The position numbers and the translations under genes were made by a program. The notes under the pieces were generated by a model. The model made no database searches, had not been told where the DNA came from, and saw only the letters and a list, made by a program, of their open reading frames with translations. Below are positions 4,553-7,357 of a stretch of DNA of 64,000 bases, in pieces (the stretch's first letter is position 1; every line of letters begins with the position of its first letter). The DNA is from Egibacter rhizosphaerae (GTDB lineage: Bacteria; Actinomycetota; Nitriliruptoria; Euzebyales; Egibacteraceae), in contig NZ_CP036402.1 of NCBI RefSeq assembly GCF_004322855.1, positions 3,286,001 through 3,350,000 on the forward strand, written 5' to 3'.

Positions 4553-5362
4553 ATGGACCGTACTCGGTTCGTGTCCAATCGCTTCGGACGGCTAGAGCAG
4601 GGCTTGGGCCCCTACGACCTCCTGAGCTTTCACCCGGAGCCCCTGCCTCGTACGCTCGACCTCGACAGCAGCCTCGTGAACATGCTCTCGAGTGCCGACC
4701 GAGCGCTGGGCCGCTTGGCGGGAGTGGGCCGGCTCCTGCCCAACCCCCACCTCTTGGTCACGCCCTATGTGACCCGGGAGGCGCTCGCCAGCTCCCGCAT
4801 CGAGGGGACACAGGCCTCGCTCTCCGACGTCTTCAGCGCTGCGATCGGCGGCGCGGAGGCAGGCGCGGACACCGACGAGGTTCGCAACTACGTCCATGCG
4901 ATGGAGTACGGCCTCGAGCGACTCGCCACGCTACCGATCAGTGTGCGGTTCATGGAGGAGCTCCACGGCGAGCTCATGTCGGGAGTGCGAGGGCAAGAAC
5001 GCCAGCCTGGCGAGGTCCGCAGCTCGCCGAATTGGATCGGATCGCCCGACAACCGGCCGGAAACCGCGGTCTTCGTGCCAGTACTACGACCTGCTCCAAG
5101 GGGTGAGGGAGCGCGGCGACATCGACGGGTGGCTGGCCTTCTTCATCACCGCGGTGAGTCGCAGGCGATCGACGCCGTGGAGCGGGGTGAGCGTCTCGTC
5201 GACCTGCGGTACGCGGATGATCTTTGCCGCGTCAGCCCGCCGAGTGGCCTCTTCCTTCGTGCCCGCGGGGAGGCCGCGCCGATTCGCGTCGCCAGGCCGG
5301 TTGCAGCCAGCGCGGCTCGATCAGCATCAGAATCGGCGCAAGGCCGAGCAGCGTCACGCTGA
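4553..5362 (+). pseudogene. Fic-family protein lacking its catalytic core
   Basis: Fic proteins transfer AMP to target hydroxyls using a HPFxxGNGR loop. The N-terminal 170 residues are a good Fic_N region: LGRLAGVGRLLPNP, then ASSRIEGTQASLSDVF near 82 (the inhibitory-helix-like S/T-R-I-E-G), and GEVRSSPNWIGSPDN. Homology breaks at ~5080 and resumes in another frame with YYDLLQGVRERGDIDGWLAF, a segment that normally lies after the catalytic loop. It then shifts back to QAIDAVERGERLVDLR. The segment containing HPFxxGNGR is gone, so a deletion plus frameshift inactivated it, and the usual winged-helix end is absent. The 269-residue reading frame stays open only by chance. Confidence 0.8.
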
Positions 5363-5728: not shown

Positions 5729-5815
5729 TCCGAGAAGGGCAAACCCGTCGCAAGGCGGGGACGCAAAGCCACGGGGCCCGCTGAGATCTCCGCGGGTCGG
5801 CCGGGTTACCGAAGC
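5729..5815 (+). promoter_or_regulatory. Cyclic di-GMP-I (GEMM) riboswitch
   Basis: The conserved GEMM core is present in order: GGGCAAACC (5737-5745), a short stem capped by a GCAA tetraloop, then GGGACGCAAAGCC (5758-5770). A variable P3 stem follows, with CCCGC and GCGGG arms around 5778-5796, then CGGGTTACCGA (5802-5812). These are the ligand-binding and tetraloop-docking elements of the class I c-di-GMP aptamer. The GGAG ribosome site at 5823-5826 and the ATG at 5835 follow 10-20 nt later, so control of translation initiation is plausible. Whether it is an ON or OFF switch cannot be read from sequence. Confidence 0.9.
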
Positions 5816-5834
5816 CTATGTCTGGAGTACTTCT

Positions 5835-6356
5835 ATGAGCACCATTGCTCTTCCCACACGCATGCTCGCTGTCGGCGGGTCCCTGTTGGTCACGGCCGGT
5901 CTGGCCGGGCTGATGGTTGCCGGCCCCACCGCGTTCGCCGAGGACACCGGCGTTACGGCCAATGCCGAGGTGGCGAGCACCATCTCCATCGCGGCGGACG
6001 AGGCAGCCTTCACCCTCGCTGACGTTCCTGGCGAGACGGCGTCAAACACGTCGGGTCTGACGGTCCAAACCAACAATGAGGGTGGCTACAACGTCGCGGT
6101 TGAAGCCGACGTCCCCGCGTTGGAGGGCGAAAGTGCCGAGAACACCGACGACATTCCGATCGGCACCCTCGAAGTCCAAGACGGTGAGGAGACGTACGCG
6201 TCGATGAGTGACACGGAGTCGGTCACGGTTCACGGCCAGACCGAGAGGTCCGCCGAGGGAGGCGACACCGTCACCGCCAGCTACCAGATGGAGATGCCGT
6301 TCGTGAACGCCGACACCTACTCGGGTGACCTGACATTCACGGCCACGGCGAACTAA
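5835..6356 (+). CDS. Secreted WxL-like surface protein under c-di-GMP control
   Basis: 173 aa. A signal peptide runs to about residue 35 (GLMVAGPTAFA then EDTG). The mature domain is a single beta-rich module with alternating Thr/Ser/Val strands, a central NNEGGYNVAVEA and the closing YSGDLTFTATAN. That ending is common to secreted WxL/camelysin-like beta-sandwich proteins of Gram-positives. It is the first gene behind the riboswitch and is followed after 2 bp by a DUF916-like membrane-anchored protein. The pair probably forms a c-di-GMP-controlled adhesive or matrix complex at the cell surface; that role is inferred. Confidence 0.7.
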   Translation: MSTIALPTRMLAVGGSLLVTAGLAGLMVAGPTAFAEDTGVTANAEVASTISIAADEAAFTLADVPGETASNTSGLTVQTNNEGGYNVAVEADVPALEGESAENTDDIPIGTLEVQDGEETYASMSDTESVTVHGQTERSAEGGDTVTASYQMEMPFVNADTYSGDLTFTATAN

Positions 6357-6358
6357 CG

Positions 6359-7357
6359 TTGACCACCACACACACCAGCCTGGGGACCCAGCGTCGCACG
6401 TCGGCGCTCGTTCTCGGGCTGGTGCTCGTCCTCTTCGCGATCCCGACGCCGGCCTCGGCCGACACCGAACCCGAGGATGTCGAGGACCGGCCCGCGATGT
6501 CGTTGCGGGTCAGTCCCGCGGTGATGGAGGTGGACCACGCACCGGGCGGCACCGTTGAGCCGCTGCGGGTGGACAACACCGGCAGCGAGCCCGTGGAGGT
6601 CGTGGCCGAGGTCACCGAGTTCACCGTCACCGAGCACGGCACGACCGAGTTCGCCGGCCCCGACGAGCTGTCGGCGGCCGACTGGGTCACGCTCGAGGAG
6701 ACCGAGTTCGCCCTCGAGCCCGACGAGCGACACGACCTCGACGTGACCGTCGACGTGCCCGAGGACGCGGAGCCCGGCGAACGCTACGTCAGCGTCATCC
6801 TCGCGGTGCCCTCCGCCGATGGGGAGGGCAACATCTCGCTGACCCACCGGGTCGCCGCCAAGCTGTACATCGAGGTGCCCGGCGACCAGATCGAGCAGCT
6901 CGAGCTCGGCGAGCTCAGCGGTCCGGCCGTGATCGATCGCGGACCCGCGGAGTTCGAGCTCGCGGTGCACAACCGCGGCAACATCCACCGCACCTTCCAG
7001 GAGGAGGGGCGCCTGACCGCCACCACGGGCGAGGGCGACTTCGCGTTCGAGAACTTCACCGTGCTCGGCGACGGCACGCGCCTCGTCGAGGGTGTCTGGC
7101 GCGACCCACCCATCCTGTGTCTGGGATGCACCGTCGAGGTGACCGCCGACGACGGACAAGGCGGCGAGGTCGTGGCCACCACGAGCGTGCTCGTGTTCCC
7201 GTGGCAACTCTCCCTTGCCGGTCTGCTCGCGGGCCTTGGCCTGTTGATGTTGCTGCTCGCTCGTCGCCGCCGTCGTGCCGAGAAGCGCCGCGGCCAGGGA
7301 GACGTGACCCCTCCGCTGTCCGACGAGCCGGCCGCCCCCGTGCACGTCGCCGGATAA
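6359..7357 (+). CDS. DUF916/WxL-partner-like membrane-anchored surface protein
   Basis: 332 aa from a TTG codon 2 bp after the upstream stop, indicating translational coupling. A signal peptide covers residues 1-35 (cleavage near PASA-DTEP). It is followed by an Ig-like domain with VSPAVMEVDHAPGG and PLRVDNTGSEPVEV, the usual opening of DUF916-type proteins that bind WxL proteins and peptidoglycan. A second beta domain spans ~190-270. One transmembrane helix (~282-302, LAGLLAGLGLLMLLLA) and an Arg-rich cytoplasmic tail end the protein. In Firmicutes such proteins act with WxL surface proteins; here the neighbour has the same general type. Confidence 0.7.
   Translation: MTTTHTSLGTQRRTSALVLGLVLVLFAIPTPASADTEPEDVEDRPAMSLRVSPAVMEVDHAPGGTVEPLRVDNTGSEPVEVVAEVTEFTVTEHGTTEFAGPDELSAADWVTLEETEFALEPDERHDLDVTVDVPEDAEPGERYVSVILAVPSADGEGNISLTHRVAAKLYIEVPGDQIEQLELGELSGPAVIDRGPAEFELAVHNRGNIHRTFQEEGRLTATTGEGDFAFENFTVLGDGTRLVEGVWRDPPILCLGCTVEVTADDGQGGEVVATTSVLVFPWQLSLAGLLAGLGLLMLLLARRRRRAEKRRGQGDVTPPLSDEPAAPVHVAG

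Follow-up and report, generated by a model that had tools for sequence, protein, structure and literature searches.

Within the window, the 64-kb stretch of DNA that was analysed (C1:3286001-3350000 of a complete genome of 4.64 Mb), an Rfam scan returned one match only, at positions 5729-5814 of the plus strand. This element is followed on the same strand by 20 nt of leader, a gene for a small secreted protein (gene 1), a spacer of 2 nt, and a gene for a membrane-anchored protein (gene 2). The features of the locus are as follows, in window coordinates.

5729..5814, plus strand: c-di-GMP-I riboswitch aptamer of Rfam clan CL00126 (RF03167, 67.1 bits; RF01051, 72 bits)
5738, plus strand: equivalent of the ligand contact G20 of Vc2, here G (alignment of 53 aptamers; numbering of PMC3764141 and PMC4744006)
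5765, plus strand: equivalent of Vc2 A47, which stacks between two guanines, here A; G in the GGC variant family (53-aptamer alignment, RF03167 consensus)
5809, plus strand: equivalent of the ligand contact C92 of Vc2, here C (alignment of 53 aptamers)
5815..5834, plus strand: 20-nt leader with the Shine-Dalgarno sequence GGAG at 5824-5827 and no terminator (sequence; terminator scan, 0 found)
5835..6356, plus strand: gene 1, predicted 173-aa secreted, small beta-rich protein of the riboswitch-linked gene 1 subfamily (full-length profile match, E 1.7e-4)
6359..7357, plus strand: gene 2, predicted 332-aa membrane-anchored WxLIP-like protein with two Ig-like domains and a C-terminal transmembrane helix (AlphaFold model; structural match 9i25)

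The Rfam match was to RF03167 (c-di-GMP-I-GGC), with 67.1 bits against a gathering score of 59 (E 1.1e-13), and its alignment spans the whole model (1-80). The first-pass annotation had called a complete GEMM core here and proposed RF01051 as a check; when the genome of the window was searched with that model, the same positions scored 72 bits against a cut-off of 35 (E 6.3e-14, model 1-87/87). Both families belong to clan CL00126, from which the best family was picked by the clan rule. The loop of P2 is a GNRA tetraloop (GCAA, 5750-5753), and P1 is weak, with two G-C pairs followed by a mismatch and a wobble. The c-di-GMP-I aptamer at 5729-5814 is complete and is an ordinary representative of an established riboswitch class. 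The GNRA-capped core was thus confirmed, and the coordinates, as well as the spacing of 20 nt between the aptamer end at 5814 and the gene 1 start at 5835, had been read correctly.

Gene 1 starts with an ATG and encodes a signal peptide. No Pfam match was found for it up to E 1, the WxL family PF13731 included, and its translation contains no Trp, hence no Trp-x-Leu motif, so that by the defining motif it is not a WxL protein. A WxL domain protein (PF13731) was rejected as a candidate identity, since the Pfam match and the two Trp-x-Leu motifs are both missing, and the earlier description of gene 1 as 'WxL-like' was not borne out by these results or by its structural model. The AlphaFold model is of low confidence (pLDDT 53.8); its top Foldseek match was the TasA fibre (8aur, E 4.6e-3), and it was also matched by pilins and, with Z of about 7, by many unrelated beta sandwiches. 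A weak NCBIfam match (E 0.083) to the pilin model of the CPR 'Pam pilus' was also observed.

Gene 2 starts with a TTG and encodes a signal peptide and a C-terminal transmembrane helix. Its score to PF06030, 11.6 bits, is below the Pfam cut-off of 27.3, and no DUF3324 match was found in Pfam. The AlphaFold model (pLDDT 70.8) contains two Ig-like domains and a helix at residues 282-312. Its top structural match was the WxLIP of Enterococcus faecium (9i25_C; Z 13.0, 221 aligned residues, rmsd 7.6); PapD-type pilus chaperones were on a par with it or scored slightly less (Z 12.6 and lower). WxLIP has been proposed as a surface anchor that binds WxL proteins and is encoded beside them (PMC10599100). 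The fold match and the adjoining gene for a small secreted protein make gene 2 WxLIP-like by predicted fold and gene neighbourhood. The earlier term 'DUF916-like' (WxLIP, DUF916/DUF3324) therefore holds for the predicted fold and fails on sequence score.

The reading of the locus as a two-gene surface-protein operon behind a c-di-GMP-I riboswitch was supported, as was the absence of a dedicated regulator, no regulator gene being present in the operon. The host genome encodes 28 GGDEF and 20 EAL domains above cut-off, and is therefore able to make and degrade c-di-GMP. Two more c-di-GMP-I-type sites were found in it, one of 69 bits before a gene for a GGDEF-EAL protein and one of 34.1 bits, just under the RF01051 cut-off of 35, before a type IV pilin gene. 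The 69-bit riboswitch (C1 about 3643788-3646729, minus strand; L002/L047) lies about 14 nt before its gene, which encodes a 951-aa membrane protein, and may possibly form a feedback loop on c-di-GMP metabolism. Elsewhere in the window, an open reading frame at 4553-5362 encodes a Fic N-terminal domain (PF13784, E 7e-27); the catalytic Fic domain was not matched in its reading frame, and it is possibly broken.

Among the genome of the window and 60 relatives of its class, 33 of 61 carried a c-di-GMP-I riboswitch above cut-off, and in a phylum-wide sample of Actinomycetota the count was 151 of 396. Behind 47 riboswitches of the class lay genes for 18 type IV pilins, 11 CAP-domain secreted proteins, and 18 others, which indicates that the riboswitch is common there and mostly controls surface and secreted functions. 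At two loci of the survey (L036 in G060, and L048 in G040, the latter below cut-off), a c-di-GMP-I riboswitch is followed by a gene for a small secreted protein and then by a signal-peptidase-like gene.

Upstream regions of homologous operons were compared, as the first-pass annotation had suggested. A scan of genome contigs with the window gene 2 alone found no relative. Gene 2 homologs were present at 13 further loci of its own class, with 28-35% identity and most beside a small secreted protein; no Rfam riboswitch was found in the fetched flanks of these 13, so the gene pair does not need the riboswitch. A gene 2 profile detected homologs in 76 of the 396 Actinomycetota genomes. About 60 gene 2 loci, mostly with roughly 3 kb upstream, were fetched and scanned, and c-di-GMP-I riboswitches were found in three (L094, L095, L097) and a c-di-GMP-II riboswitch in one (L123), in each case upstream of the pair and in the same orientation. 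Given how densely riboswitches occur in such genomes, about 0.1 would, as a rough estimate, be expected by chance, although the three class-I cases belong to a single family and do not count as independent. A search of named genomes yielded two further loci of this order, L155 and L157, and a third, L156, where the riboswitch and gene 2 are present but an intact gene 1 is not. The order c-di-GMP-I riboswitch, gene 1, gene 2 thus occurs in five other genomes (L094/L158, L095, L097/L159, L155, L157), and in a sixth genome (L123/L221) such a pair lies behind a c-di-GMP-II riboswitch. Those hosts that are named are MAGs of uncultured Actinomycetota or Thermoleophilia (JAUSDE010000151, JAJZQT010000087, JAJYXB010000004, JACWAM010000053, JACUUO010000046).

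Some of these loci have features of their own. The c-di-GMP-II locus (L123:383-3848 / L221, JACUUO010000046) contains, after the riboswitch, a subtilase-like gene, a gene for a small secreted protein and a WxLIP-like gene, and the C-terminal tail of the subtilase-like product resembles the small secreted protein encoded next. At L156:2582-2657 (JAGVMV010000028), the base of the aptamer equivalent to G20 is A, and gene 1 seems to be truncated or to carry an internal deletion. Relatives of gene 2 are also frequent in Patescibacteria.

By profile comparison, the window gene 1 matched the riboswitch-linked gene 1s over 163 of its 173 residues (E 1.7e-4, probability 50%), whereas with the gene 1s of its own class that have no riboswitch only the signal-peptide region aligned (E 0.19). 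In sequence it thus resembles the former group and not the latter. When the gene 1 profile was run against the 396 genomes, one clear member was found beyond the window and the three source loci (L242, E 2.9e-23); a similar gene 2 lies downstream of it, but there is no riboswitch in the 1.4 kb upstream. A c-di-GMP-I riboswitch is present at 6 of the 7 loci of this subfamily, counting the window. It should be borne in mind that the riboswitch was the reason for choosing the window, and that two other loci were first spotted by riboswitch position. In the gene 2 tree, the branch of the window is long and unresolved, and no fewer than three changes of riboswitch label are needed; shared inheritance, transfer, and repeated recruitment of the riboswitch may each be compatible with it. 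The occurrence of the same switch-plus-two-genes unit in distant relatives suggests that the link is selected, and we read the unit as a recurrent c-di-GMP-controlled surface module in Actinomycetota. The circuit that had been presented as the clearest new one in the window is not unique to it; the target of the riboswitch appears to be unreported.

The key ligand contacts of c-di-GMP-I riboswitches are G20, A47, and C92 (PMC3764141, PMC4744006), and G5738, A5765, and C5809 of the window aptamer are the canonical set, as found in 50 of 53 rows of an alignment of aptamers from the class and related loci. Since RF03167 is the best clan member in Rfam scans, with a score above its gathering cut-off, the aptamer might be thought a c-di-GMP-I-GGC variant with an altered ligand, the operon answering to another signal. 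The consensus of that family, however, has G at the A47 position (the conserved G of GCGAA), from which we infer that the name 'GGC' derives, and the window has A there, with G20 and C92 canonical and 72 bits to RF01051. RF03167 was also the top clan member for several typical GAC aptamers of other genomes, so that its lead probably reflects GC-rich actinobacterial composition and not the diagnostic base. This makes an altered ligand very improbable; with A and not G at the A47 position and the whole set canonical, c-di-GMP is the expected ligand, presumably bound in the RF01051 manner. Among other aptamers of the class, L026:1501-1589 (G042), before a CAP-domain gene, is the one with G at position 47 (GGC-type), and L012:1501-1584 (G040), ahead of a gene that is TasA/camelysin-like by eye, has A at the G20 position. 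The latter change is known from cGAMP-sensing GEMM-I riboswitches.

Some predicted c-di-GMP riboswitches were found not to be functional in vivo (PMC6200980, PMC11218506). Decay does seem to happen in this group, judging from the A at the G20 position and the truncated-looking gene 1 of L156. That the window aptamer is such a relic, or a chance neighbour without effect on the two genes, is nevertheless hard to reconcile with its full score, the retention of all contact bases, the same order in distant genomes, and the grouping of its gene 1 with the riboswitch-linked subfamily, and we consider it quite unlikely. No terminator was found between the aptamer and the start codon and the Shine-Dalgarno sequence lies 10 nt from the aptamer, which makes control on translation most likely; a bias towards riboswitches that act on translation has been reported in Actinomycetota (PMC12452182). 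When folded with ViennaRNA, the Shine-Dalgarno sequence was unpaired at 0.13-0.37 with the aptamer enforced versus 0.21-0.37 without it, no clear change, so neither an ON nor an OFF switch is supported by computation. A pairing of CUCC in the P3 loop (5788-5791) with GGAG was considered and set aside, as it would comprise no more than 4-5 pairs and nothing clearly equivalent is seen in the genome's second copy. With only 20 nt from aptamer to start codon, a ligand-stabilised fold could hinder the ribosome and lower the pair at high c-di-GMP, and the folding does not favour ON over OFF. Against such an OFF switch, adhesin targets elsewhere rise with c-di-GMP: gbpA of V. cholerae, a c-di-GMP-I riboswitch target, is up with c-di-GMP (PMC4744006), and expression of cbpA of B. 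thuringiensis is lower in a diguanylate cyclase mutant (PMC7423583). On the basis of these adhesins, high c-di-GMP most likely turns the gene pair ON, and OFF control is a minority reading that still carries some weight.

Taken as a whole, positions 5729-7357 are probably best explained as a c-di-GMP-responsive two-gene operon. The aptamer in the 5' leader would sense the c-di-GMP level of the cell and set translation of gene 1, and that of gene 2 would follow through the 2-nt spacing between the genes. The gene 1 product would be a small, beta-rich surface subunit, and the gene 2 product its membrane-anchored, WxLIP-like partner, probably holding it at the cell surface as proposed for WxLIP and WxL; a physical pairing of the two proteins is thus predicted. 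At high c-di-GMP the pair would be switched ON and displayed as part of a sessile, attached state.

The closest regulatory parallels are Vc1-gbpA of V. cholerae and the cbpA leader of B. thuringiensis (RF01051), which share with the window the aptamer sequence and structure, the G/A/C contacts, and a secreted or wall-bound surface protein as the target. Their targets are single chitin- or collagen-binding adhesins, in contrast to the gene 1/WxLIP-like pair, and the platform of the B. thuringiensis Bc1 riboswitch is long and contains two terminators (PMC11218506), whereas the window has 20 nt and none. The WxL cluster of Gram-positive bacteria (small WxL, large WxL, and WxLIP, i.e. DUF916-DUF3324-TM; PMC10599100) likewise places a small secreted protein beside one that combines two Ig-like domains with a C-terminal transmembrane helix, and the WxLIP fold matches that predicted for gene 2. 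The window differs from it in having only one small protein, without the Trp-x-Leu motif or WxL Pfam match, a gene 2 below the Pfam cut-off, and a riboswitch in front. The units at L094, L095, L097, L155, and L157 agree with the window in c-di-GMP-I aptamer, gene 1 subfamily, WxLIP-like gene 2, order, and strand. Their gene 2 products, however, have a long C-terminal tail past the transmembrane helix, which is short in the window, and in most of these loci the leader is about 180-200 nt long, with a conserved CUGGGC element that is complementary to the aptamer and could pair with it.

A bolder and rather doubtful extension would be a c-di-GMP-controlled surface fibre or anchor system of Gram-positive type, in which gene 1 would supply a TasA- or pilin-like surface subunit that works by donor-strand exchange, and gene 2 a chaperone-anchor of PapD/WxLIP-like kind tethered to the membrane, with unrelated c-di-GMP riboswitch classes recruited more than once in Actinomycetota. 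In the literature, no paper joining WxL, riboswitch, and c-di-GMP was found by a search that took in few subscription journals, so that the novelty of the target is provisional. The regulator class and surface-protein targets for it are already known, and the gene 1/gene 2 target pair is apparently unreported. That such pairs are preceded by c-di-GMP riboswitches of two unrelated classes speaks for a role of the pair in the attached lifestyle, and this recurrence is the interesting part of the finding. For Actinomycetota it names a recurrent target of c-di-GMP, in the form of a surface module of two genes whose anchor is WxLIP-like, and gives uncharacterised genes a testable function.
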